64,000 nt of DNA from Gracilariopsis chorda (lineage: Eukaryota; Rhodophyta; Florideophyceae; Gracilariales; Gracilariaceae): contig NBIV01000286.1 in assembly GCA_003194525.1 (NCBI GenBank), positions 1 to 64,000 of the forward strand, written 5' to 3'. Shown here piece after piece: positions 16,971-33,130 of this stretch; the stretch's first letter is position 1; the number at the start of each line of letters is the position of its first letter. Position numbers and translations under genes: made by a program. The notes beneath the pieces were generated by a model. The model did not search any database. It was not told the DNA's origin and saw nothing but the letters and a program-made list of their open reading frames with translations.

Positions 16971-18773
16971 GTGAATACAGTTCTGAGAGAACAGGATGCA
17001 GGAGAAGGAAAGGTCGTGGATGTTATCATCGACCTCTGTAGAGAGACGAATATTCAGCCAATGCCGTTGGGTACGCACGACTCTGAAGCGCGTGCTATAC
17101 GGAAAAGCCAGCGAACAAAGCGTTTTCATGAGCTGAACCAACGTTCTGTTCAGAGAAGTGGGATGTGTCTACCCCTGAAGATTCGCATGAAGCGACGAGT
17201 GCAGTTTTCTGATTCTGCTCCAGTTGTAGCGGACATTGTGAACACATTGGTTGAGACATGTATATCACAGTGCTCCGAGGTGGTGCACAAAGCGCTAGAT
17301 GAGAAAACTGGAAGAAGTTCTGAAGTAAGTGGAGTATCAGGTGTAGAAGAGGAGCAGAAAAGGATTCAGAATGGAGAAGGTAGTGAAGTGGACATGGAAA
17401 TTGACGGAAACTCACCAGCAAAGACGATCAGTCGGACATAGGCACAGGTAGAAATTGAAGCTGAAGAAGGAGCGAAGGATACCGCGGCGCCTTCCGAGCT
17501 GAAGGCACAAACTGAAAAACAGATTGAAGAGAAGAAGCAGGCTGCTGAGAATGGGGGTCAAGCTCAAGAGCTGAATGATGAATTGGTAGCTTGTTCTGAT
17601 GCTCAGATACAGGAGAAGCCGCACATGGAGCTACCATGAATGAATATGCGTGAAGGGCGCACTACGAAGACCGGGTCATGCACTGAGATTCAGGTAGAAT
17701 TACAAGAGACATTTGAAAACAATGGAAGGTGTTTAGGGGTTGATGTGAAACTTCAGGACGGTGGTGAATGTAAGACAGAACTTGCGATGTCAAACGAGAA
17801 GCTTGTCTCAGCTCTGAAAGTTTTAAACAAGGTCTTTGACCTCCCTGCACTGGTCACCTACATCGCTAAGAACCTTGGCTACCTCTATGGTGTATAATGC
17901 TTCTCAGTGTTGCAGACGAGGAAGTCGAGGTCGTCTGCGCCGCTCACCGGAAAATTGCGGTGTCTGGGGCACAAGTCGCAGTCCCGCTCCAACATTCGGG
18001 TAAAGTTCTATCCCATGGCAAGATGTTGGGTAATCGAACAGGACCTGATACACACGTACACCCCCCAACAACTTCCATGCCCCGATGATGTTGTAAGAAG
18101 AAGATTTGAGGGCATTCGCTCCTCTTTAGCCTCCCGTCTACAAGAATGGGAAGAGCACATACGGATAAATGGAGAATATGTACGTCTGTCATGCATATTA
18201 CGAACCATACCCTCCTTCCATGGAGCCGAGTTCTGCAACAGCTCATCATTCTACCTCCTAGAGCTTTCACATAGTCCTTTATCTCAAAGCGATGCAGAAA
18301 CAGGAAGCGAAGACGATATGGCGTATGGCGACTCCAGTGGGGCTGAGGACTTGTATCCCTTCTATTGCGTGTTACATAGCACGAAATTTCCTGCGAGGAG
18401 AGGTGTTTTTGATTGCCGTGCTTCGCAAAGAGGAATGCACGAACCCAAACCCGAGCTTTGGAAGCAACACTCCTCGGTTTCACAGGAAGGACGTAGGCTG
18501 GTTTCCAATCTAACGAAAAGGCCGCAGCAAGGACCTATCTCAAGGGAAGGCATCGGGAAAGGTGGCGTAAACGATGTAAAATGCTCGGATGGACTTCTGG
18601 AAAACGCGTTTAACGTCGACAGTGGCGTAAGAGGCGATTTTGGCATTAGCTCTTTTGAAGCTGACCCCCCTGTTGCTTCTCCGAACTCCTCAACACAAAC
18701 AGTGGACGCGAAATGCAAGCGTGAACCCCACAGCGCTTTGGGCGCCGAGCTAGGCTCAAAGATGAGTGAGTAG
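16971..18773 (+). pseudogene. unidentified Glu/Lys-rich frame leading into the MULE transposase
   Basis: One plus-strand frame stays readable over 1.8 kb, broken by four in-frame stops (near 17439, 17637, 17895 and 18771) with no frameshift. Frame 16971 starts at GTG, not ATG, so the true beginning is uncertain. The stretch 17.3-17.63 kb is rich in Glu, Lys, Gln and Ala and should be helical. 18.05-18.77 kb is mixed and partly acidic (SGAEDLY). I see no named domain. The same frame runs on into the transposase at 18774, so this may be a long N-terminal extension of that protein, which would be unusual for MULEs, or an accessory gene. Confidence 0.45.
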
Positions 18774-21640
18774 AGTGAAACTCTCAACGCATACGTTGCA
18801 TATGCGCAGCAGGTTTCAGATGAGCAATCCGCTGAAGAAGAAGAGGCGCTGCTCACTGATCGATTCTTAGATGACGAAGAGAACATTCATTCATGCTTCT
18901 TCGAAGACTCTGATGGTGGCATCCTGAATGAAGAAGAATCAGAATCAAAGGAGAAGGATGGCCTCGGAGAGAAGGACGAAAAGTACTGGACAGAAGATGA
19001 TAATGAAGAACTGGGCATGGAATCCGTACAGAACACGATACCGAATGAGAGAACTGAGGATTGTTTTAAAGCAGCTCTCTTAGTCTATCTGGAAACCCTT
19101 CCTTTCAATGCTCCTGGTGTCACGGTGCTGAAGGAAGTTCAATTTATCGCGGACTGCTTCGGGTACAGCTTATTCGTAAGGACGTCTATATACTTTGGAG
19201 AACGAAAGCGATCTCTGGATAAGGCGAAGTCTCCGAAGAGTCGTGGAGCTGAACGTGGGAATAGAAGGGTGCTGAAGAATGGAATCTTGAAGTGCCATCA
19301 ATACCATGACAAGATGAGGCGATGCCTCTTCTCGATAACGAGTAAGACGGAAGATTCTTGGCAGGAGGAAGATGGTGAAATGATCTACGTGGCTAATTTA
19401 AATGGGTGTAAACATGGACATGGTCCCTCTGGGAGCTTTGGTATTAGACATTTCAAGCTGCAAATGCGTTCTGAAGGGATACATATGACGAACGATTTGC
19501 ATATGAGCTTCAGAGATATGATACGATACCTGGAAGACAAGTACAATCAAAAGATAAATCCAGTATCGGCGAGGAAGGAGTTGAGGTATGCTTCCTCCAC
19601 AAGCAGTCCCCCCGATTTGGAATGTGTAAGGTTATGTGACCTGCTCTTTTCGTTGAGCCGGGAGGATGCAGGGAATAAGGGATTTTTCGCTGCGGATGAT
19701 TCGGGTAGGATGAAGTACGCTTGTTGGTCGTTTCGATAGTGGATGGAAGACTACCAGAAGTTCGGCATTGTTTCGGGGGTATCTATTGATTGTAAAGCCA
19801 TAGCCAATAGATACGGTTTCCCTCTGGTCACCATTAATGTAAGAGCCAATGATGGTCATGTGTTGACGTTTTTCATGGGGTACATGTGCTCCGAAACAAA
19901 AGAGGACTTCGTACGAGTTCTGTCCTACTTCAAGTCTATAGTCACCGTCTCACCGGCGATGGTAGTGATGGACCAGAACACTGTGTGTATAAATGCAGCT
20001 GAGAAGGTGTTCAACTCGTCCTATATAAGCCTCGACGAATGGCATCTGAACGTAAGTCAGAAGAAGAATGTGGCCAATTGCTGTAGAAAGATTGGCAAGA
20101 TGGAGTGGATGCACGTTATGAAGAAAGACCTGTTCAACCTCAGAAAGTCATATACGTCGGAAATCATTTTCGAAAGGAGAAGAATGCTAGAATCCAAGTA
20201 CTTTGATGCTTTTGACGATCGTCTCCCTGTGTGGTATAAGTAATTGTACCACTATAAGCCGCATAGGCTGGTGTCTTGCTTCTGAAACGCGGCTATACCT
20301 ACCCGTTACATGTTACAAGGAACTGGCTCCACCGAATCTTCTAACTCTGCATACAAGAAAATCATTATATCAAAGAATAATCCCTTGTGCAAGGTTCCTT
20401 GGGAGGTTTGGCGTATTTCCCAAGAACGGGCTGATACCCGGAACTTGGAGCTTGTACGAACCTTATCTTCTCTAGGTGGGAGATATCCGGAGACAAGAGA
20501 GCTTGAGCACTTTCTATCTGTAGAAGTTGTAGACAGCCTGGTGGCTGAGTACACGAACTATGACTTGGCAAACTTCGTAGATTTGAGCTTTAAGCCCTCG
20601 AAGAACTACATTCTTTGCAGCACAGAGGTTGTGTATTATTCACAGGAAGCGTGGCCGGAAGCAATCAGACACCTGGAAAGTAGTTCAACCCCAGCACTTG
20701 GACCTGTGGCTCACTTTAAGTTGAAATGGGGAAGCCATTTGAGTCAGAGCCGAATGCGTCGTTGAATGAAGAACGGTCATCACAGGAGACTGTTGTACAA
20801 TTCTCAAAAAGGTATACGGGGTCGGGGGATGACGTTAAGGCAGAGTATATTGGTGTCTGTTCCTGTAGGCAGCCCTGGTCCGTTGGTTTTGCTTGTCTTC
20901 ACATGGTTCGATGTGCTGTGGTTTATCAGGAAGAACGTCTGCGGTTCCCTGAACTACAAAACATACTAGGATTCTTCATACCTCTTGAAGCGCTTTTCTC
21001 TACATACTGGAGAAAAGATTCTTCTGCTATGACAGTCTCATACTTGGCGAAACTCAAGTCAGAGGCCCGATGCATCAACAAAGAGGAGATGTATTAAGGA
21101 CTACGCCATTTTGATGAGTCAATGGAGAAAAAGTTTATCCCCATTGACTCAGATATACTTAGAACCAGTAGAGAATACTGGGAAGTAGATGGGTACAATA
21201 CGTACATGGAAGGAAAAAACCTCTATGATGCTTTACATCGACAAACTACTGGAATTGGACGTGTTGCGGTGAGTGGAGTTCTACGTCTTTTAAGGGATGC
21301 CATCGCGGACATTCAGCAAGGAAAAGCGACACAATTCGAAGCTAGAGGTATCTTTAAAGCAAGGCTGGCTTCATTAACAGAACACGCGGAAGAAACAGAG
21401 AAAACTATCACTTTACTGCATCCATCTTCGTCTACAAAAGATTTCAGTTCATCAGGGATCCGTCCGCCAAACAATGGACGCCACAGGGCACAACGGAGAA
21501 AGAAAAGCTCCTTGGAGCGCACGAGAAAGCGAGCGAGGACAAGCCCACATTCATCCCAGGAAGCGTCTCAGAAAGACTGTCACCCACCTTCAACATTTTC
21601 AGAACCAGCTGTGCGTCGGTGTTCTCGGAATGCTAGATAG
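18774..21640 (+). pseudogene. Mutator-like (MULE) DNA transposase, decayed
   Basis: Cut-and-paste transposase of the MULE superfamily. Parts in order: an acidic lead (18.82-19.02 kb); a FAR1/WRKY-GCM1-type zinc finger with C-x9-C-x29-H-x-H at 19293-19421; the RNase H-fold catalytic core with first Asp at 19788 (SIDCKAIANRYGFPL), second Asp at 19971 (VVMDQ) followed by the WH pair, and catalytic Glu at 20334 (GSTESSNSAY); a SWIM finger CxCx9CxH at 20858-20902; and a Lys/Arg-rich tail at 21.47-21.64 kb, a likely nuclear localisation signal. Four in-frame stops (near 19737, 20241, 20286 and 21095) and one frame change near 20.73-20.76 kb make it inactive. I found no terminal inverted repeats by eye. 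Superfamily call is firm; boundaries are not. Confidence 0.85.
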
Positions 21641-22372
21641 AGGTGGTAGATCGCAAGTTTCTTAGGCAAAAGCTCAAAAATACTACGAAAATGATAGATT
21701 ATGCTAGTTTCTGGCGCTTGCCAAGTAAAAAAAAAATTTTTTCGAATTCACACTTCCATATCTGACAGAGCCTTGCCTCACCTGCACTGCACATCGCTAG
21801 TTTAAAGTTTGGAGCAAGTTTATTCTCCACTAAAAGCTAGATACACATCTCGAAATGGCGCTGGCCGCGCAGTGGCCAGCGCCCTTTCGAGCACCCAGCC
21901 AAAAATAACATTTTTATTTCCCCCTAGTTTGACTTCCAACTCATCCTCAGGAACTCATCTGGGCAGCTCTCTCCATTCTCACACACCCGACGCACTGCGC
22001 ATCAGATTCCAATACCACCCATTCCGTGGTCCGAACAGCCTCAACGACACTCCTAAACATCACTAGCCTTCTTCTCCCTCTTCCCTCTTTCCATGCCTCC
22101 TCTTCAACGTACTCTTAACCTTCAACCTTTCTTCATCTCCTCCAATCTCCTTTTCACGACCCCATCTTCACGCCCAGCACTGCACGTGTCTTAATACCCA
22201 TCTCTTTTTGCATGTTGCGTCACGCACGCCAGTACACAGCATGATGAACCATTCGGAAGTCATCAGTTGATAGGCACTCCGGCTGATGGTGCTTTCTCAG
22301 ATTTATCCTCTGCATCCATGGATGGGAATGCTTCACTGCATTTCCGCTTGCAGGCCACTCACTCGGCAACGA
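21641..22372. other. intergenic stretch between MULE frame and ParB-like gene
   Basis: No gene. Contains an A/T homopolymer junction at 21727-21740, the 39-bp hairpin at 21851-21889 and pyrimidine-rich sequence from 22.07 to 22.2 kb. It holds the converging 3' ends of the plus-strand MULE frame and the minus-strand ParB-like gene. Confidence 0.5.
21851..21889. repeat. perfect 10-bp GC-rich hairpin
   Basis: GGCGCTGGCC and GGCCAGCGCC are separated by seven bases and extended outward by CGAAA and TTTCG with one unpaired base on each side. It lies between convergent genes. It could be a small foldback element, an end of the MULE, or a structured RNA end; nothing in the sequence decides. Confidence 0.55.
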
Positions 22373-24787
22373 TTATACCAGGTCCATCCAAGAAATGTCC
22401 ACTCCCATAGCCAGCTCTCCTGGCGTACTTAAGCCAGCTGGAAGCTTGTCAGGATTCTTATCGTCAAAGCTGCCTGCGGTTTGCTGCTCCTCTGCCTCGT
22501 CTTCCTCATCATTCACAAAGTCCTCTTGAGCTTCATCCTCGCTTGACTCGAGCACAATGATCTCCTGTGCTGTCAACCACCTCTTCATAGCTCTCCTTTC
22601 CATACTATGCAGCACCTCCACCACCTTCTGCGAGATACCAAAGCCAAGTCGCTTCACATCAGGTCCAGTCGGCTTACGATTCGATGGTCTCTGCCTCTTC
22701 ACCGGTGGCTCAAAATCAACTGACTCTTCATCTTCATCTTCGTCCAGGACCTCCACTTTACGCTTCTTTGAGATTTGCTTACTTCTTCGAGGCTCCTGGT
22801 CAGCGTTCAGAGGCTCCTGAGCAGCTTCCTCATTCAGACCAAGCAACTTCATCACGTCCACATCGGCCGCAGAGGGAGCAGCAGCAGTAGCATCCTGTCC
22901 TTGCATGCCTGACAAAGCGCTGGACAATGTCCTACGAACCTCTTTTACCTTATTACTTACTCTGGACTCCAGTGAACTACGTTTCCCTTTCGTATACCAC
23001 TTCCCCAGACGAGATATGATATACTTTGACACAGTCTGGTCAGAATCGCCGATGGTAGCCGTGGTATTCATCACTTCCTGTACAATCTTTTTCTCCTTCA
23101 TGGAACTTCCCAGCTCACTGCAAATGTCATACGTTCTAGAAACGCAGTCGAAGAAGTACTTTCGGAAATCCTCAAACGGTCCCATCTTCACACTGGCCAC
23201 CGACCTCACTCGAACATGCGCCTGTAGACATTGGATAGTAAAACAAAACTTATCCCCTGACATTCCAAGCAGAATATCACTAGACACATGAGTGATTCCA
23301 ATTTGAGGCGTCTCCTGCCAAACCACATCGAAGAACTCTAACAGACCGGGATTACGCGCAAACTTCAGAGCAAGAGCAGAATGGTGATTGAAATGACGTA
23401 TCTTCCCTTCTTTCACCTTCCTCTCACTGCTCCACAACACCCCCGTGATTTGGCTTGGTTTAAGCTTCGAAACATCATACCCATCCTGCTCTACGCCATT
23501 ACGAATAAACGAAACAGCAGTGTGAATCTTATCTGCAAAGGACATCACCAGAACATTGGAGCTCAAATCATTCAACGTCTTACCCAGCCACAACACCTCA
23601 TTCAATGTCATTCTCCGGCCATCGTTCCGTTCCCGAAGCGTGACGTTCAAACCAGCAGTAGTTCGTGCCCATTTCGCACCATCCTGCTCGAGGTCCAGTA
23701 GAACACTCACTCGATGGAAGCCGTCCACCAAAACCACAGGAACAATCAAACGCCCACTGGCATCAATAGCGTCACGAACCGGCACATCGTCCAACAGGGC
23801 CACCGCAATCGACCCAAGAGAAGAGAGCCATCCGACGTTCCTCAGTTTGTTCGAAGTATCTCGAAGATGTTTGTCATTTTTCGAACCAACCATGTTCATC
23901 GGAAATCGAATGTTGTGGATATCGATTACGCAATTGTACTGGTCATAATCATCACGATCGATGTCGAAGACCCCCAAACTGCTATCCACCTCTTCCGAAG
24001 GATCAGCATCACCGTCATCATATAAAACCCTCTCCTCCGGATCAAGATCGTTCCTGGAGAGTACAGGCACATCTATGGCGTCATCTTCGGAGCTTGCTCC
24101 GACTTCAGGGCCTCGTCGGTTTCCAGAGCCGCCCACGAGAGCACCTGATATTCCTCCAGCGCTCTGACGGGTTTTCACCGGAGCCTCTCCACCGCTCTCA
24201 AGGCTCCTCACCGTTGCTTTGGTCACAAAAATGCTTGATGGGGTGCCAGCAACAGCGGGAAGGCGCTTGGCTGGTCTTGCAGTGGTCTTGGAAGCTGTAC
24301 TTCTGTGGACAGACTTCACATTTGCTCCTGATTGCGGTGGAACCGACTCATTCCCCTCTCCGCCTTCATTTTTGACACTCATCATCGCAGTGTCCCATGC
24401 ATATAAACCCGCTGAAACCATCTCCTTCAAAGTTGCGCGCAATTCCTCGGGACATCCAAAAACATAAGGGTACTTCTCATCTTGGTGTGACGAAATATTT
24501 GTCTTAAAGATAACCACCAAGTTCTCTCCAGGTCTCTGCGTAGAGGAAAGGGGATGGTTGTGTAGTGAACGACAGAGTCTCGTCCCCGGCTCCCCAGCAA
24601 CCCCCACACCACGCAATTTTGCCTCTCCTACCTTCACCCTCTTATCACTACTCCCAACTCGTACGAACAGATTGACCTCCGCATCACCCTTAAGCACCTG
24701 ACTCGTATTGCCCCCAATTGATGGCTCAGGGTGGCTGGCAGTTCGGGTGGCGCCCCGGCTCTTCGCTTTGCCTCGCGTGGTCGGCAT
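22373..24787 (-). CDS. ParB/Srx-fold nuclear protein, intact
   Basis: Intact single-exon frame of 804 residues from the first ATG (24787); an upstream TTG is open but not a likely eukaryotic start. N-terminus is basic (MPTTRGKAKSRG). Residues about 50-280 are low-complexity and acidic in places. About 285-396 form a ParB-like region: an IHNIRFPMNM strand (290-299) followed by the DGFHRV box (355-360), matching the GxxR nucleotide-binding motif of ParB and sulfiredoxin folds. About 397-600 is a helical region I cannot name. 666-700 carries a nuclear localisation signal (SKKRKV) next to an acidic run, and the C-terminus is acidic. ParB-fold proteins bind nucleotides and may act as DNA clamps or nucleases; function here is inferred. 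Its start faces the methyltransferase frame across 475 bp. No stops or shifts, unlike its neighbours. Confidence 0.75.
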   Translation of the reverse strand: MPTTRGKAKSRGATRTASHPEPSIGGNTSQVLKGDAEVNLFVRVGSSDKRVKVGEAKLRGVGVAGEPGTRLCRSLHNHPLSSTQRPGENLVVIFKTNISSHQDEKYPYVFGCPEELRATLKEMVSAGLYAWDTAMMSVKNEGGEGNESVPPQSGANVKSVHRSTASKTTARPAKRLPAVAGTPSSIFVTKATVRSLESGGEAPVKTRQSAGGISGALVGGSGNRRGPEVGASSEDDAIDVPVLSRNDLDPEERVLYDDGDADPSEEVDSSLGVFDIDRDDYDQYNCVIDIHNIRFPMNMVGSKNDKHLRDTSNKLRNVGWLSSLGSIAVALLDDVPVRDAIDASGRLIVPVVLVDGFHRVSVLLDLEQDGAKWARTTAGLNVTLRERNDGRRMTLNEVLWLGKTLNDLSSNVLVMSFADKIHTAVSFIRNGVEQDGYDVSKLKPSQITGVLWSSERKVKEGKIRHFNHHSALALKFARNPGLLEFFDVVWQETPQIGITHVSSDILLGMSGDKFCFTIQCLQAHVRVRSVASVKMGPFEDFRKYFFDCVSRTYDICSELGSSMKEKKIVQEVMNTTATIGDSDQTVSKYIISRLGKWYTKGKRSSLESRVSNKVKEVRRTLSSALSGMQGQDATAAAPSAADVDVMKLLGLNEEAAQEPLNADQEPRRSKQISKKRKVEVLDEDEDEESVDFEPPVKRQRPSNRKPTGPDVKRLGFGISQKVVEVLHSMERRAMKRWLTAQEIIVLESSEDEAQEDFVNDEEDEAEEQQTAGSFDDKNPDKLPAGLSTPGELAMGVDISWMDLV

Positions 24788-25262
24788 GTCGATAACACGT
24801 CTCTTTGGCGAAACAAGCTCCCTCGGAGTCTGTTTCCGTGATGGCGCGTTTATCTTATTCCCAGTGGAATCTATGGCTGAGTACTTCAAAGGTCGCGCTT
24901 GCGTTTTCTTGGCACCCGCTGATGTCGAATGCTCCCGTGATCACGTATGCTTAGTTCCAAAGAGATGGACGTAAGCACTATATATCGTTTTCAAGACGTT
25001 TCATGACATCCATTGTCGTCAACGTAGCATCCCTGCAATTCCCCTCCCAATTACTTGGATTGCAAAAAGAATTTGATGATTTTTTGGTCGAAGACGATGG
25101 TCCGAGGTGTCCTGGTGCTCCATCGCGAACACGATGGAGCACCAGGACGCAAAATTCTAAGTAAAATTCATGCCTGGCGCTCCATCGTGTCGCGATGGAG
25201 CACCATGACACCTCGGACCACGGTCCTCGACCCAAAACGAAGAGAAACATAATCCGAAGGAA
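24788..25262. promoter_or_regulatory. divergent control region between ParB-like gene and methyltransferase frame
   Basis: 475 bp separate the ATG of the ParB-like gene (minus) from the ATG of the methyltransferase frame (plus), so both promoters must lie here or overlap it. A TATATA-like run is at about 24980-24985. The 156-bp foldback 25082-25237 takes up the half nearest the methyltransferase start. Role as a shared promoter is inferred from layout. Confidence 0.5.
25082..25237. repeat. nested palindrome (four copies of a 13-mer)
   Basis: Two arms of about 65 bp (25082-25146 and 25173-25237) are inverted copies, about 90% alike, around a 26-bp loop. Each arm holds its own palindrome. The left one is TCCTGGTGCTCCATCG, a 6-bp spacer, then the exact inverse (25110-25147). 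The right one has 13-bp arms with one mismatch and a 5-bp spacer (25175-25205). The 13-mer TGGTGCTCCATCG thus occurs four times, three exact. It could be a protein-binding cluster (parS-like in layout only), a foldback MITE, or a structured transcript leader. Confidence 0.85.
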
Positions 25263-28200
25263 ATGGGTTCATTCAAGATGCACGGAACCGCAGAAGAGCT
25301 CATTGATGCTTATCTTGCAGTTCGTGATGAGTAGGCAGCGACGAGGCAAAATGTGGACGAGCCGAGAAGTTTGAAGCACACCGACTTTGTGGAGTTCGGG
25401 GCACAAAGTCGCAACGTTCATGACTGTGCCAAGAAAATGTTTCTCACTCTCATCGGACCGGATTACATCTCGTATTCGGACTTCGAGCTCCGTAACAAGT
25501 CTCTCAGAGGCCCTCCACGTCAACTCTATCTTATAGCAAGAGTGGTGGACGTAAAGGATGGTGAAGAAGACAGGCGTGTAAGGGACGTTTGGAAGGTTTA
25601 TTGTAAAACGGAAGGGCTTAAAGGAATAACTCCTAACGTATTGCTATCTTTCCTTTGCAAGTCCCGTGTTCTGGGAGCAACCAAGAAATCTTCCGCTTTC
25701 CACACCGATCCTTGAACCCACTTTGAAATGGTCATTGGGTTTTCTATGGTGTAACAGATTGCCGTAGATAAGAAAGGAAGTGGTAGGAAGAGGAAAAGGG
25801 GCATGGCAGCTAAGATGTTCTCGAAAGTGATTTTTTCGGACAAGACCAAGAGTCAGAGAGTCGGGTATGGTGTGCAGCTGGTGACCAGGGCTTGGAGTTG
25901 TTTCGCCCAATTCCTCGGGTTTCCCAACGTTGAGGTTATGATCTTGCCTTACATTTGACTCGACTATATCAGTGTAGTCTTCACCGATATCGCACAACGC
26001 TCCATGGGTTTCCAACACAAAGATTGTCCCAAACAGTTTTTAGAGTAGAAGAACGTCACCACCGTAGAAGAAAACGCTACCAAGTGGGCATGGAATCTGC
26101 CGAACCCAGTGGATACAGCGCTTCGCCTTTGTGCCAAAGAATAAATTGGTGACCTTTTTAATGTGGTGGTACAAGAGAAACTGTTCGACATCTCTGCTCC
26201 CAACGAATGGGATGCCCTCAAAAGGTTCATCATCACGAGAACGAGACTTTTCCCTCTGCGGTTTGAGAACTTTAGTGAATCTCTTGTCACTACAGTTCAA
26301 TAGGCCATAAACGCTCTGGCGCTCATTGCATTGCACGGAAGCAATGTCAAAGTACATCAAGCCGTGAAACCAGAGCCCGCAGAAGACATTGACATCATTA
26401 TGGAGCCGGTAGAAACTGGTACGGCCGGTGGTGGGAACGAACGTGCTGAGCGTGTGGAAGGTGGTGATCAGGGTGAGTTGGAAGAAGTGGAAGAGATAGA
26501 GATGGTAGAGGATGCGGAACGTGGTACTGCGGAAAGTGGTACTGCACCAAAGGCCACTGAAGGACTGCAGACAACAGCTTTGTCGCAGAACTTATCGTAT
26601 GATGTCGAAGGCACAGGGACACGTGCACTACCGTACCTTACGACTTTGGATGATATGATAGCTTACAAGTATTGTGAGAAGGAGATGTCCCGCAACTTCC
26701 GTCTCCACAACTGCAAGTTCGAAAATCTCATCGAAGTTGACGACAACAAGTCTGGCGAAAGCGAGGTATCTATTGAAGGAAGGGTACAGTTCCTGCTTTC
26801 CGATCCGCCATATGGGACCCGTTCTGAACGTCGTTTGGAGAACAACGAACATGATATTCTGACAGAGAAGGGCATGAGCAGGTCAGCGAGGAGGTCGTCA
26901 AAGCTTCTACGTCCTGGTGGACATATTATACTGTTATGCTCATGGGATCAGGTACCGTTGTTGCGGGATGTGCTACGGAAAGTTACCTACATGGATGAAT
27001 CTGATACGATGCGTCTCTCCTTTGTCGTCGACGAACAGCCCCTCCATTTCGTACGGTCTTTAGGTAATACGACGGGTAACGTTGGGAGAAGATGTTGCCG
27101 GTTGCACCAGACGACAGAATACGCTGTACATGCTGTTCGTTCTGGAGTTCCTTATGCACAACAGCACCGGATGGTCAACTATGAGAACTTCAATTATATT
27201 GCTTCCCGATACCCAGCGTATCATGCAATCATGATTCAGGTGCCGCCGATGTCAAATAGTGAGATGCTTATGTGGTCTGTGAAAAACCCAGATGGGAAGT
27301 ATACGAGGAAGAGGGTGCGACCGGAACAGAAGTGTAGGGCACTGTTGAAAGAGCTGATTTGCAGGGTCAGTCAGCCAGGAGACCTCGTGGTCGACATGTT
27401 TGCCGGAACGTTCTCGACAGCGATGGCGTGCATGGAACTGCCCAAGCATCGGAAGTTTATGGGGTGTGAACCGGACAAAGCTTGCTTTGAACACGCCAGG
27501 CATGCCGCTATTGTTCGCTTCGCTTCCATAATACGGGAAGGAAACACGGATATTGAGAAGAGCCAGGAGCTTCGAAAGATGCCCCATTGTCTTTCCTCTG
27601 CATTCCCAATGGGAAAAAGCAGGTACACCGTGTTATGGAGGGCTGTCGACGGATTTCCACCGTACCAAATTCTTCCCCCACACCTTGTCGACTTTCTCTC
27701 CACTTTGTGGCAAAGTGAAATTCTAGGGAACTTGGGAAGGAAGAAAGCTATAGATAGATGGCCGAGGGAGCTGCAGAGAAGAATGAATCTGGAGAACATG
27801 AAGTCTCTATTGGCAATGGAGGCTGTGCAATATGGGTTGCGAGTGGGCAAGTCTACTACTTGTCACGAAAAGGCTGGTGTTGGAGTGTTTGCAACTCGTC
27901 AAATTGCTGCAGGCGAGGTAGTGTGCTATTTCTAAGGGACTTTGGTTTATCATGACCTTTCGAATCAGAAAGAAGTGCACAAGACCTACGGGGAGGGAGT
28001 CATGGGTGTGACGAAGGATCGCTTTGAGAAGTATGCAGTGGAGATAGAAGTATACGGTCAACAGTTCCAATCACATCTGCATCGAAAACAGCTGACAAAT
28101 TGGCATGGAAAACAAGCAAACCCCATTTTATGGGTGGTTCCTTCCCCTTTTTGTATTGCGGGGTATATCAACGATCCAAAGTACGTCGAAGGGGATAAAC

Positions 28201-28430
28201 AGTTAGATTTCATGGTGGATGGCCTCTTGAAAAAGAGGGAGGCTAATGTGCAAATGAAACGGACACCGGGAGTGGGACGAACACCAGGGGGATTAACGGA
28301 CTACAAACTTAGTAAGATGGAGGCGACAGCCGACATAGAGCAAGGAGAGGAACTCTTCGCCAGATATAGTGATGTTTATGACTGGCAAACCCATTTGAAT
28401 GTGGAGGATGGAACGAAAGTCATTGATTAG
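25263..28430 (+). pseudogene. DNA N6-adenine methyltransferase fused to a SET domain, interrupted
   Basis: One frame of 1056 codons opens at a well-placed ATG (25263, A at -3, G at +4) and stays in phase to 28430 with eight in-frame stops, seven of them before about 26.3 kb. Residues 1-350 match nothing I know. The middle is a DNA methyltransferase: DPPYGT (about 26805-26822), a PGGHIILLCSWD segment (26913-26948), then DMFAGTFST (27394-27420) and a GCEPD acidic loop. Catalytic motif before the AdoMet-binding motif is the beta order of the N6_N4 methyltransferase family; DPPY favours adenine. The C-terminus is SET-like: GVGVFATRQIAAGE (27870-27911), a GYINDP segment (28159-28176) and IEQGEELFARYS (28336-28371), the order of SET lysine methyltransferases. 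Eukaryotic style and ATG context speak against bacterial contamination. Whether it is dead or decoded in some unusual way is open. Confidence 0.75.
26400..27935 (+). CDS. uninterrupted methyltransferase segment of the fused frame
   Basis: Within the interrupted frame, the stretch 26304-27932 has no stop. Its first ATG (26400) would give a 511-residue protein containing an acidic lead (26.40-26.56 kb), the complete methyltransferase domain with DPPYG and FAGTFS, and the first strand of the SET domain. A stand-alone adenine methyltransferase of this size would be normal for the family, so a shortened but working enzyme is possible. Against this, the ending falls inside the SET domain and no promoter is evident at 26.3 kb. 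Confidence 0.45.
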   Translation: MEPVETGTAGGGNERAERVEGGDQGELEEVEEIEMVEDAERGTAESGTAPKATEGLQTTALSQNLSYDVEGTGTRALPYLTTLDDMIAYKYCEKEMSRNFRLHNCKFENLIEVDDNKSGESEVSIEGRVQFLLSDPPYGTRSERRLENNEHDILTEKGMSRSARRSSKLLRPGGHIILLCSWDQVPLLRDVLRKVTYMDESDTMRLSFVVDEQPLHFVRSLGNTTGNVGRRCCRLHQTTEYAVHAVRSGVPYAQQHRMVNYENFNYIASRYPAYHAIMIQVPPMSNSEMLMWSVKNPDGKYTRKRVRPEQKCRALLKELICRVSQPGDLVVDMFAGTFSTAMACMELPKHRKFMGCEPDKACFEHARHAAIVRFASIIREGNTDIEKSQELRKMPHCLSSAFPMGKSRYTVLWRAVDGFPPYQILPPHLVDFLSTLWQSEILGNLGRKKAIDRWPRELQRRMNLENMKSLLAMEAVQYGLRVGKSTTCHEKAGVGVFATRQIAAGEVVCYF

Positions 28431-28595
28431 TTTGTTGTTACAAACCTTTCTCCACAGCTTGGGTAAAGCATGTCGTTAATTATGTGAACGTATGTCTAGT
28501 CCTAACTTAGGAAAATATTACTTTTCAGTAGGGATAGAAGATACAAAGCGATATAGATGTGACACAGAAACGTCCATTTTCGGTACCACCGAGGA

Positions 28596-29094
28596 TTGTA
28601 TTTTCAAGATTTCACAAAAAGCAAAGATTTTTGTGCGCATCGGGTGGCGAGATTTTCCCGGAAAACACACGGCGTGCGCCAACCCAGAGCGTCACCAGGC
28701 ACTTGTGCAAGAGTTTTGACTCCAAGAATCGCGCTGAAGGGAAAGAAGCGAGGCCCAGGAAGGGGTAGTGCGGCGAGTGCGGCTAAGACGCGGCGAAAGG
28801 CTATTGAGGAGCGAGCTGCGAGTGGAACGAAAGCGAATTCATGTATCCCCAGTAGCGGATTATCGGGGAGGAGGTGAGGAGAAGGTGCTTCGAAGAGAGG
28901 GGGAAGAGGTGGGGCAAAGAACGTCGGATCCGAGCGCACGACGAGTGAGCGCACGACGAGTGAGAATTTGAAGGCTGATGACCATGCGCATATGGCAGGC
29001 GGGAGAGATTCGGTTAGGGGAAAGCGATCTATGCCTGGGCCGGGTGGTAGACTGGAGGGTAAAAAGGGTTGGTTGTTCGGAGAACGGAAGAGCT
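28596..29094 (+). pseudogene. low-complexity basic frame before the coiled-coil gene
   Basis: Lys/Arg/Gly/Ser-rich plus-strand frame with one in-frame stop, containing a 15-bp tandem duplication (GAGCGCACGACGAGT, about 28938-28967). It may be the N-terminal part of the coiled-coil frame that begins in another phase at about 29.07 kb, linked by an intron or a shift. No domain recognised. Confidence 0.25.
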
Positions 29095-30802
29095 AACAGA
29101 CCAAGGAGGGTTGAAAGGAAATGTGCCAGTCGAAGGCCGAAATAAGGATGAATATATGCCCGGAAGGAAACAAATAGAAGAGGCAGGTGCGCTGAGGAGA
29201 GGTGGGGCCCCAAGTGGAAACCGGGATGTAGGAGAGGTGAATGTCTCTTTGGAACACAGTGATGGGGACGAAGAGGATCACATTGTGAAGGAGAGATGGA
29301 CGAGAGATATGATAAACGAAGGAGTGGGACGCCGCTCTAATTTAAAGGAAACGCAAGAAGTGGAAGAATTTGTCAGAGCGACGGATGGAATACAGGAAGC
29401 ATCGAAAAGCGGAGACCGTACAAGCACACTCGTGCGGACGCAAAAGGTACAAATGGTTGAAAACTTGGAAAGTGATAGAGAAAGCAGAACTCCGCAGACT
29501 CTGAAAGGCATGCGAGAGAGAACATGAATTGTTCATCGGTCGCCGAGTGAACCTGCTGACGAGCGAAGCCTGCCTGTCAATGTTTTGGGAGATGCCGGAA
29601 ATGACGACATCGGTGTGATTTCTTGATCTTTGTTAGTTGAGACGGTCAATATATTGAAGGCAGAACTCGGACAGATCAAAGGGGACCACTGCAGCCTAAA
29701 GATATCGCTGAAGCTAACGCAAGAGGAACTGAAGAGGATGAGAGAAGAGATGAGCGAGAAGAATATATTGATAGATAGCTTACGGGAATAGATGAAGGTG
29801 GGAAGAGGGGAGAGAAAGGGATCTGAAGGTGAAAATGGCTTGAGAGGGCGTAGGAAGTATGTAGTTGATGTGCAAGAGAGTTTTTATGGGTTTGCCAGGG
29901 TATTATATGATAGGTTGTTGTACTATGCCAAGGTGGAGGTATCGGAGTTTTGTTTTACTTCGGAGGGTGTGGAAAGAAACTGGAAGAATCGATGCAAAGT
30001 ATTGGGGAAGGGAAGAGAGTGGATTGTGTTTGTCGTCGGAGGAAAGGAAATTGTGCCTCGATGTCCGTTTGAGATCGCGTCTGAGATGAAGTCATACACG
30101 CCTTCGTCGCGAGGAGGAAGTAATGACCAATAAAAGTACTTGTTTGGCGTTGAGATTGAGAGGAAGAGATGGCAGTCGATTCGTGAAGCGGGTAGGAAGG
30201 ATCAATGCGTGCGGGAGGTTGTTGCGGACAGGTGTTTGAGGCAACAAATGAAGCAGAATTTGAGTGGTGTGATTGGGATTCGGAAGCGTGCGGAACCGGA
30301 CAAAATGCTTTCGTTGCTTGGATATGACATGATCGCCAGACGTGTGAGACCGCGAGAGGGGACGGGGCTAGACATTAAGTTGAAGAAGCAGTTAGAGGAA
30401 GCAAAGACGAAGTTCAAGGGGGATGGGGAGGTGAAGAGCGGTAGGTTATGTTCTTGGAGGATGAGAACAATCGAGGGTCTTACGTATTCTGGATTTCAGG
30501 TTGCTGGTTGGCTGAGGGCGTTTAGTGAAGAGGACATGTACTTCAAGAACGGGGCTGCGGTGGAAGTGTTGGAAGAATTCATGGGATATGAGGTGGAGAC
30601 GGAAAGGGAGGGAAAGATGGAGTACGTTGATGGGACAGTGATGCATTTGGCTCCTTTGAATGCGTGGATTGGATTTGCTTTGACAGCAATGGACACAGAT
30701 ATGGGGCGTGGAGGAAGAAGGCAGTTGATATTTTCTAGTTGTACGGGGACTATCTTCGGCTTGCAGTGGAGAAAATACTTGGAGTGGCGTGGGAGAGGGT
30801 GA
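29069..30802 (+). pseudogene. unidentified coiled-coil protein frame, interrupted
   Basis: I do not recognise the family. One frame remains in phase over 1.73 kb with stops near 29525, 29624, 29789 and 30131, ending at 30800. 29.07-29.52 kb is charged and low-complexity. 29.63-29.79 kb is a clear coiled coil (NILKAELGQIKGD, then LTQEELKRMREE). 29.87-30.80 kb looks like a folded domain with regularly spaced aromatic and hydrophobic residues (GFARVLYDRLLYY, YSGFQVAGWLRAF, LNAWIGFALTAMD). The purine-rich strand is coding; the opposite strand gives Ser/Pro/Leu-rich shadows. It follows the methyltransferase-SET frame on the same strand, so it may belong to the same element or cluster. Confidence 0.45.
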
Positions 30803-30812
30803 GAGAACTACA

Positions 30813-32060
30813 TCATGAAGAATTGGAGAATGAAGGTTGCGATGAGGGTGACCCGCGTTTTATAGCTAGGAATGGGAGTAGAGAAGCGAAGGCAGCGCTG
30901 TGGATACCTTCGAAACGGAAGATTGTGGAGATGGCGCGCTGAATGAGGGCCATTCTTGTTTCGCGTGGGATATTGGAGGACGAATGTGGGATGGAGTATC
31001 CCTCGCCGGGGGAAGAAGAGTGGGAGAAGAAAGTTGGGAGGTATCCGAGTAGGGTGAGGTTTTGGGAGACACAATTTCGGTGGAATGCGTCGGAGAGGTT
31101 GAGAAGAGTGATATGAAGGGGGTAAGAGGTGATGGAGAAGCCTTTGAGTGAGGTTACAGACGTATCGAAGTATCACTGGACGAGACCGACGAATGATTCC
31201 ATACCGGTTGTTTCGGGGGTGTGCCAGACGATATCATTGATGTGGCACTGCGTGATGGCCTGTTTAAAGACAGGAACGACTTTGTTTCTGAAGGCTGCAG
31301 CCATAGGATGAGCGAAGGCGGGGGTTGAAGAAGAGTAAGGTGAAGATTGGGACACGCGTTGGAAGAAGGTGTTGTTGAAGTGTGCGAGAGCGAGTTGTTG
31401 CTTCAGGACGTCTGTGGCGCGTTTTTGGAAGAGGGTTGCGGAGAAGGAGTTGTGCTCGTCGGTGAGTGTGAGAGGGAGGAAGCCGGTGGAGCTGATGCAT
31501 TCCTTAAGGAGGTTTTCTTGGAGTGCGAGGCACTGCTTTGCGGAGGAAATGGATTTCTGGAAGGATGACTTGGAGAAATCTGGGTGGTTGAGAAGGGAGA
31601 TGAGTTCGTCGGCTTTGCGTGTGCTGAAGGAGGAAGCGATGGAGGACATGCAAAGGACGAGTTGCTCGAGATGGGGGTTGTTGAGGAGAGGGGAGAGGGA
31701 TTGGGACGAGGTATGGGGAGGTGGGTTTGAGGAGGAGACTAAACAGTGGGCGTGACTTGCCATGTGGTGAGCGTCTTGTGTTTGGAGGGAAACGGAGGCC
31801 TGTTGGATGTGATAGGGTTCATCTTCGGCGAGGGGGACGTTGTCGGAGGGGCGGTGTGAGGGAGTGGGAGGAGGAATGGTGGAGAGGTTTGAAACGGATT
31901 TTCGTCGCTTGGTCCTTGGAGTGAACTGGACGGGAGCGTTGGCGGAGGAGGAAGGGCGTTTGTTGGGGGTGAGTCGACGAGGGCACCTGCGTTGGTGACT
32001 CTGGAGAGAGAACGCGGTGCGGCCATAGAAGGTGCAACGGGGATGGCAACAGGGTATCAT
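30813..32060 (-). pseudogene. Plavaka/KDZ-type DNA transposase, N-terminal half
   Basis: Minus-strand frame from an ATG at 32060. It begins with a C2HC-type zinc finger (MIPCCHPRC ... SHQRRC, residues 4-26), continues through a Ser/Pro/Thr-rich linker and a helical region, and then reads, after one in-frame stop at 31173, VTSLKGF, YPLHITLLNLS and LLGYLPTF. A first catalytic-strand region followed by YP-x-(8)-N and a Gly-Tyr-Leu-Pro turn is the hallmark of Plavaka and related KDZ transposases. A second stop at 30813 ends it; the rest of the catalytic core is not found beyond that point, where the plus-strand coiled-coil frame lies. It is therefore a truncated, inactive copy. Family call is by motif memory. 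Confidence 0.55.
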
Positions 32061-32446
32061 GGCGGGGAAGGAGAACGGAGAACGGGATGCTTGGAAACAG
32101 AGAAGGGAGGGTGGTGGCGGAGTGGGATATCGGGGAGCGTAATATCATGGCGCACGTAGATGAGGTGGTGCACGTGATGCAGAGCGTCTTTTCGTAGGGC
32201 GTGGGGTAGAGCATGCGATGCAGGGAGCAGGTTGAGCAACGGGTGATAGAAAGCCAAAGCTATTTGGTTATGTAAACTCTATGTATCTATTCTATCTATC
32301 CTATCTATTCTATTTTGCTATTTGAAGGGGCACTCGCTCAGGACCAGTAAGATTTGGATTCCACGTGCACCTGAGAGGGTAGGTATTAGTAGAGTCTGGC
32401 GGTAGTTTTACCTCCAAAGAAACTAGGAAATGTCTAGTACACTGCT
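32061..32446. other. intergenic stretch with a small tetranucleotide repeat
   Basis: Upstream of the transposase half. About 32283-32320 is an imperfect TATC/TATT microsatellite. No gene or RNA recognised. Confidence 0.5.
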
Positions 32447-33130
32447 AGTCTTTTGTCCTAAACGAACTAGCTCTGTGCTATGTATGGAATTATTTTGAGA
32501 AATTTGATTCATTCAAAACTGGGTTTGAAGAGTCGTTATTCGTTCATTTTAATTCTTTGCCTTTTGAATGCCAAACTAGCATAACGAGAACACCGACGAA
32601 TGTTGACATCAACCATGAAGCATTAAATCCTGTGGTGATGCCGATTATGGTCCAATTCAACATTTATAACGAGGATGAATATCTTCAGATGAGCTTTGTA
32701 GCAGGCCGCCCCATCTCTGCGTGGCTCGCACCCCTCCACAGGTCCGGGAATGTTCGAGAAAAGATTGTATGGCATCTACTACATCTTTGTCTTTTCTTAA
32801 ACAAGTTCTATGGTCCCTACGTAAGACCCAAAGTCTTCCAGACTGTTCTATCTTTAACAAACCACCTAGATCCGGACATTGAAATAAATGTGGGTGTAGG
32901 CTTTTTAAAGTATCCCTACCATTTCGTCGTCGGTTAGTATGGATATTAACCACCAACAAAACGTACACGGGAAAGATTATGCAGTTCATCATGGCATTGA
33001 AAAGCGGTCAGCCATTTGCTTTCAGCTATGCTCAGGAACAAAACCGTATGGACATAGAATTTATGTTCTGGTTTCATCTGGTACAACGTTCCAAAGTTGG
33101 TGTGGCCGAAAGTTGTTGGTCGCCGGTATA
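32447..33130 (+). pseudogene. unidentified open-frame fragment
   Basis: From a stop near 32446 to 32937 one plus-strand frame is open for about 163 codons with protein-like composition (YVWNYFEKFDSF, FNIYNEDEYLQMSF, HLLHLCLFLNKFYGPY). The next 190 bases are readable in another phase (WILTTNKTYTGKIMQ, FMFWFHLVQRSKVGV). There is no ATG near its beginning. It could be an internal exon, or a piece of a DNA-transposon protein; I cannot name it. Confidence 0.3.

Follow-up and report, generated by a model that had tools for sequence, protein, structure and literature searches.

Why would a red alga carry, side by side and pointing away from each other, a gene with a ParB-type motif and a gene joining a DNA methyltransferase to a SET domain? 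The question arises from a 64,000-nucleotide stretch of Gracilariopsis chorda DNA (contig NBIV01000286.1, positions 1 to 64,000 of the forward strand; hereafter the window), in which an earlier note, made from the letters alone, had proposed an epigenetic element at positions 22373 to 28430. We found that the locus lies within a decayed copy of a DNA transposon of the Plavaka type. The best explanation, to which we assign a probability of roughly 0.72, is that both genes are cargo of this transposon, one an epigenetic writer, the other a ParB-like regulator that would act at a palindrome between them; the mechanism is one that we infer.

The locus is a copy of a Plavaka-type transposon

The element was recognised by its terminal inverted repeats (TIRs), by the ends of blastn alignments and by the transposase present in its relatives:

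21614..32598, strand not assigned: Plavaka-type DNA transposon, decayed copy of group A (groups are described below), 10,985 bp
21614..21636, plus strand: left TIR, 23 bp, from end comparison among copies
32576..32598, minus strand: right TIR, 23 bp, from end comparison among copies

Alignments between copies break off sharply at 21614 and 32598. The TIR reads CGTCGGTGTTCTCGGAATGCTAG, and of its 23 bases 21 are identical between the left and right ends of the window copy. When up to 2 mismatches are tolerated, it occurs 115 times in forward and 125 times in reverse orientation in the genome searched (91.3 Mb in 1081 contigs, the window contig being labelled C286), compared with 1 and 0 for a reversed control. 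The target duplication was exactly 2 bp in all 19 end pairs tested, which were chosen among the exact TIR matches listed. Ten of the 19 span a listed methyltransferase place, and the other nine span a match to a further gene of the element, gene M, eight of them together with a Plavaka match. Both ends were also read in six more copies: a 2-bp duplication was present at C187, C37, C12 and C336, and none was found at the window copy or at C7. Duplications of 2 bp (or 2-3 bp) are those described for Plavaka elements (PMC12730594). The ends themselves, CGTCGG..CCGACG, are not the published TGT..ACA of PlavakaA or CATCA..TGATG of PlavakaB, both termini of fungal Plavaka families (PMC12730594), and this unlikeness argues for a distinct branch.

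The transposase is best seen in copy C53, where a 1087-residue frame matches the Plavaka family PF18759 (E value 2.5e-21, 76.7 bits, cut-off 26.3); CPRC and HLLDH strings are visible in this frame. Plavaka matches number 114 genome-wide. When the methyltransferase frame was used as a protein query, the search listed 82 matches, which make up 81 places once the two halves of one broken copy are joined, and the idea of a unique locus was rejected; 81 of the 302 first-look candidates were scored, and the 81 places are a lower bound. A convergent Plavaka match, on the opposite strand, lies at most 12 kb downstream of 44 of the 81 listed methyltransferase places, compared with same-strand matches at 3 and upstream matches at none. 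The TIRs, the target duplications, the transposase of related copies and the high copy number thus bear out the part of the earlier interpretation that invoked a mobile element, and the comparison of outer ends that had been suggested there yielded both inverted repeats and duplications.

The copies fall into three groups. Group A, the window-like copies, shows ~76-92% identity, with in-frame stops in most intact-length copies. Group B (C745, C332, C53, C48 and C241) shows ~70% identity and has 1065-codon frames, and group C, whose copies are near-identical to one another, shows 71-72% identity and has ~608-codon frames. Groups B and C are the recently amplified ones. From left to right, the full gene set comprises the left end, gene S (minus strand), gene M (minus), the ParB-like gene (minus), the palindrome, the methyltransferase-SET gene (plus), gene 3 (plus), the Plavaka transposase (minus) and the right end. 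This order is a composite from comparing copies, none of which showed it entire.

The plus-strand gene encodes a methyltransferase-SET fusion

25266..28430, plus strand: methyltransferase-SET gene, broken, located by tblastn using the stop-free C53 frame of 1060 residues
26784..27494, plus strand: N6_N4_Mtase domain, in the beta-class order, DPPY before FAGTFS
27876..28367, plus strand: SET domain (PF00856), with one TAA at 27933

Methyltransferase motifs followed by SET motifs had been read in this frame, and profile searches agree: N6_N4_Mtase matches with an E value of 2e-15 within 26331-27932, and PF00856 scores 29.2 bits in the window against a Pfam cut-off of 22.4. The alignment, from 25266 to 28427, belongs to one gene and crosses 8 internal in-frame stops, 7 of them at 25332-26301 and one at 27933; stop-free 1060-residue versions occur in other copies, for example C53. 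Methyltransferase and SET as two separate genes were also considered and rejected, the two being one frame interrupted by stops.

The enzyme has the features of a beta-class N6_N4 DNA methyltransferase, namely a PF01555 match, motif IV before motif I and a catalytic DPP(Y/F), and all 25 aligned homologues keep Asp-Pro-Pro in motif IV. Its structural matches (6pbd, 8s9m and 1boo) cover both adenine-N6 and cytosine-N4 enzymes. Outside this genome we found 26 methyltransferase-SET homologues (P0002-P0027), one of them from another red alga, Chondrus crispus; PF00856 is precomputed for 18 of the 26. The N-terminal ~450 residues of these homologues are conserved, forming a helical N-terminal third.

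The minus-strand gene is a probable remote relative of phage ParB domains

22373..24889, minus strand: ParB-like gene, open for 838 codons, 804 of them from the first ATG, at 24787
23480..23977, minus strand: putative ParB/Srx-like core with a DGFHR box, from hhalign against 11 phage ParB domains

The 804-residue frame is intact, as had been described. Neither Pfam nor NCBIfam nor PDB sequences gave a match to the protein; the Pfam searches with it and six family members returned a single row, an unrelated domain of unknown function at an E value of 0.16, and PF02195 has no match anywhere in the genome. PHROGs gave only unnamed families (E values 0.0067-0.041). A single homologue was found, P0001, with 26% identity over 87%; a protein search with the core alone found none, and tblastn of the core against phages gave no match. 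The structure model, built from two sequences, has a predicted local distance difference test score of 39.7, too poor to use. Residues ~840-1060 at the C terminus of P0001 have, by eye, the look of a 2-oxoglutarate dioxygenase (H-x-D ... S-H-R), for which Pfam gives no match.

The best phage match of the neighbouring methyltransferase is that of PhiCh1, which has an N-terminal ParB_N before its N6_N4_Mtase (ParB_N E value 5e-5, 23.7 bits, below the cut-off of 26.3); ParB_N was absent from two Streptococcus phage methyltransferases checked. We aligned a profile of six ParB-like sequences of the element family with a profile of 11 ParB domains from PhiCh1 and its relatives. The alignment runs from the first strand through the DG-x-HR box and scores 28.8 (E value 4.9e-4, probability 32%). 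Column-shuffled controls, 200 per profile, never reached this score (maximum 18.6 for shuffled phage profiles and 24.0 for shuffled element profiles); a reversed profile scored 13.2, and an unrelated profile (A3) gave an E value of 0.61. Results were weaker against PhiCh1 and three near kin only (E value 0.093) and with a two-sequence alignment (0.0019). What was read as a ParB-type DGFHRV box survives as a remote profile similarity that none of 400 shuffles equals, and not as a match that Pfam, NCBIfam or PDB recognises. Remote kinship with ParB/Srx proteins is likely, not proven.

The divergent pair recurs and encloses a palindrome

Divergent transcription of the two genes, ParB-like on the minus and methyltransferase-SET on the plus strand, was correctly noted. 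The 475 bp once given for the gap between them would be too long: if the gene is collinear with the intact copy, the methyltransferase-SET start would lie near 25209, leaving ~0.3-0.4 kb.

We surveyed 20 further group-A copies, chosen by hand, fetching 1 kb from each at the expected ParB-like position; throughout, ParB-like copies were counted only at loci whose flanking DNA was fetched. ParB-like sequence was present in 16 of the 20, on the strand opposite the methyltransferase in all 16, and C10 and C3 have only a short ParB-like part followed by gene M. None was found in the 1 kb fetched from C151, C24, C2 and C4. Three copies with longer flanks gave ParB-like sequence in C60 and C7 and none in C336. 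The same divergent layout thus recurs at 16 of 20 copies plus C60 and C7, which answers the objection that the two frames might never be neighbours elsewhere.

Between the genes lies a palindrome:

25081-25128 and 25190-25237, strand not assigned: arms of the palindrome, the right arm overlapping the projected methyltransferase-SET start

The arms in the window are 90% complementary, with a strand folding z-score of -13.5. Two sets of arms are present in all nine other group-A copies examined; at the same place, as read at loci L029 and L022, group B has two palindromes, one of them perfect (43-base arms, no spacer), and group C retains one perfect palindrome. Between A and B the palindromic unit is shared at 21 of 27 bases, although each version is complementary to a partner of its own. 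Searching with a degenerate form of the two finds inverted units in all 17 distinct copies whose intergenic DNA was examined (10 A, 3 B and 4 C) and nowhere else in the window; C336 has one extra unit. That the palindrome between the genes is conserved makes the suggestion of ParB-like action at such a site more likely, as far as sequence can speak to it. Long, spacer-free palindromes that are perfect or near-perfect, such as those at L029:382-475, L029:622-707 and L022:1744-1829, are unusual in assembled genomes.

Selection on the cargo genes

Substitutions were counted by the Nei-Gojobori method. Because synonymous divergence (dS) between groups A and B exceeds 1 for the methyltransferase-SET gene, gene 3 and the ParB-like gene, the ratios of nonsynonymous to synonymous divergence (dN/dS) are rough: 0.159-0.190 for methyltransferase-SET (10 group-A loci against C53), lower than the 0.24-0.26 of gene 3 (4 loci) or the 0.21-0.30 of the transposase (4 loci, partial), and, when the window is compared with C241, 0.254 for 283 codons of the ParB-like N-terminus, with 0.132 inside residues 60-190. 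In our reading, methyltransferase-SET and the ParB-like N-terminus were under purifying selection during the divergence of groups A and B, and group-A copies now decay neutrally.

Together with the high dS, several observations weigh against our best explanation. Within group A, the median dN/dS is 0.85 for methyltransferase-SET and 0.92 for the ParB-like gene (91 pairs, 14 copies). The SET match is marginal in the intact copy C53 (23.3 bits against the cut-off of 22.4), and group C copies, which lack the N-terminal ~420 residues of the methyltransferase, have amplified all the same. The recently amplified groups B and C lack the ParB domain: in group B, C241 retains the first ~283 aligned ParB-like residues, followed by gene M, and C53 and C48 have no ParB-like match, nor do four group C copies, although in C187 a short stretch of the N terminus can be made out by eye. 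These groups nevertheless keep the palindrome, which argues against the ParB-like protein as its only reader unless that protein acts in trans.

The remaining genes and the surroundings

28668..30924, plus strand: gene 3 remnant, with 5 stops (802 residues in copy C53, coiled-coil-like by eye)
30918..32060, minus strand: transposase gene remnant, residues 1-384 of 1087 only

The transposase remnant is missing most of the Plavaka domain (residues 248-541), and no Plavaka match on the window contig is among the genome matches listed. With only residues 1-384 left and no such match, the window copy cannot move by itself.

Gene M (~400-430 codons, membrane-protein-like by eye) has 130 genome matches and has been lost from the window copy. 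It lies between the ParB-like gene and the left end in group-A copies including C10, C3, C24, C4 and C46, and a capture by groups B and C only was rejected on that ground. Gene S, a small coiled-coil gene of 259 residues, adjoins the left end and has no match within the window. No Pfam family was found for gene M, gene S or gene 3. A second set of gene M sequences, at ~36% identity and with 434-codon frames, occurs for example at C228:3720-4427, C12:171230-171937 and C3:357649-358356, and the same contigs bear other Plavaka matches (C228:11028, C12:178533 and C3:364953). More than one Plavaka family thus seems to carry gene M.

To the left of the element, window positions 17907-21640 hold broken frames of another repeat, which looks Mutator-like only by eye. 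Copy C53 is inserted in a sequence resembling this repeat.

How the cargo might act

Under the cargo reading, the methyltransferase would methylate adenine, or less likely cytosine at N4, in element DNA, and the SET domain would methylate histone or other lysines at the element. In this way the element would set its own chromatin state, so as to avoid being silenced or to control when it transposes. The ParB-like protein would bind the palindrome in the shared promoter region, where it would repress or balance the two divergent promoters, and it may also bring the methyltransferase-SET writer to element copies. The earlier idea was that three activities together could mark a DNA region or silence it, or serve to protect and control a mobile element. 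It is borne out as regards the mobile element; a joint action of the three is conjectural, and the youngest copies lack the ParB domain.

Sequence cannot tell silencing defence, transposition timing and a limit on copy number apart. Defence is the foremost of the three and is tentatively entertained: methyltransferase-SET would write activating or blocking marks against host silencing, as proposed for the TET/JBP genes in fungal Plavaka, Zisupton and other transposons (PMC12730594). Selection is stronger on methyltransferase-SET than on the transposase, in keeping with such a role, but writers can silence too.

It is doubtful that the ParB-like gene is unrelated to ParB or a mere passenger, with methyltransferase-SET and the transposase sufficing and the palindrome serving as a transposase or transcription-end site. 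The palindromes that outlive the ParB domain in groups B and C would fit this, as would the remoteness of the homology and the single homologue; the occurrence of ParB-like sequence, on the opposite strand, at 16 of the 20 additional group-A copies surveyed, the purifying selection on the N-terminus between A and B and the profile match to phage ParB domains speak against it.

Two further schemes can be considered, both unlikely. Dam gates transposition of bacterial Tn10 and Tn5 through hemimethylation; by a similar route, methylated ends or a methylated palindrome, hemimethylated after replication, might gate the transposase, with SET and ParB tuning the response. Just as speculatively, a partition-like epigenetic module might operate, in which each copy's palindrome is a loading site for the ParB-like protein, which recruits the writer, and dispersed copies share one self-propagating DNA and histone chromatin state under the element's control. 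A self-silencing writer that limits the element's own copy number, likened to transposon silencing in bdelloid rotifers, is improbable, the rotifer genes being host genes and these being element cargo under selection.

Relation to known systems

In fungi, Plavaka and other transposons bear TET/JBP genes whose proposed role is to counteract silencing (PMC12730594). The Plavaka members share with our element the transposase, 2-bp duplications and a DNA-base-modifying enzyme as cargo, and differ from it in that here a methyl writer replaces an oxidising eraser, a SET domain is fused, a ParB-like gene and a palindrome are present, the ends are different and the host is a red alga. In oomycetes, HarbingerS and MuDR transposons contain SET genes, likewise as histone-methyltransferase cargo; those transposase families are different, and a fusion to a DNA methyltransferase goes unmentioned in the available excerpts of that report (PMC12730594). 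Large gene-carrying units flanked by Plavaka transposase are known in another eukaryote, Amoebidium, as "Plavaka giant repeats" (PMC11244446), for which tyrosine recombinases and tandem clusters up to 50 kb are described rather than the genes found here.

Bdelloid rotifers silence transposons through a captured N4-cytosine methyltransferase (N4CMT; PDB 8s9m) paired with SET histone methyltransferases (PMC8885841). It too is a bacterial-type beta-class amino-methyltransferase in a eukaryote, tied to histone methylation, but it is a host gene with a chromodomain and no fused SET, not transposon cargo. ParB-methylase fusions with nicking activity are described in PMC5512222, which also covers the fusion Bce_0392 of Bacillus cereus; this fusion and that of phage PhiCh1 also pair a ParB-like domain with an amino-methyltransferase, each in one fused protein, whereas here the two lie in separate, divergent genes and the methyltransferase bears the SET domain. 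Our searches of the open-licence PubMed Central literature found no transposon described as carrying a methyltransferase-SET fusion or a ParB partner. We therefore class the element as an epigenetic-cargo DNA transposon in which base-modifying and SET cargo, already known separately, are combined with a ParB-like gene in a way for which no report was found.

The locus would link a phage-type pair, ParB and an amino-methyltransferase, to a eukaryotic mobile element. The hundreds of element ends, with and without the ParB gene, would serve as built-in replicates for the presence and relevance of N6-methyladenine and N4-methylcytosine in this genome. If our reading is true, transposons import and write marks too, beyond their known carriage of eraser genes.

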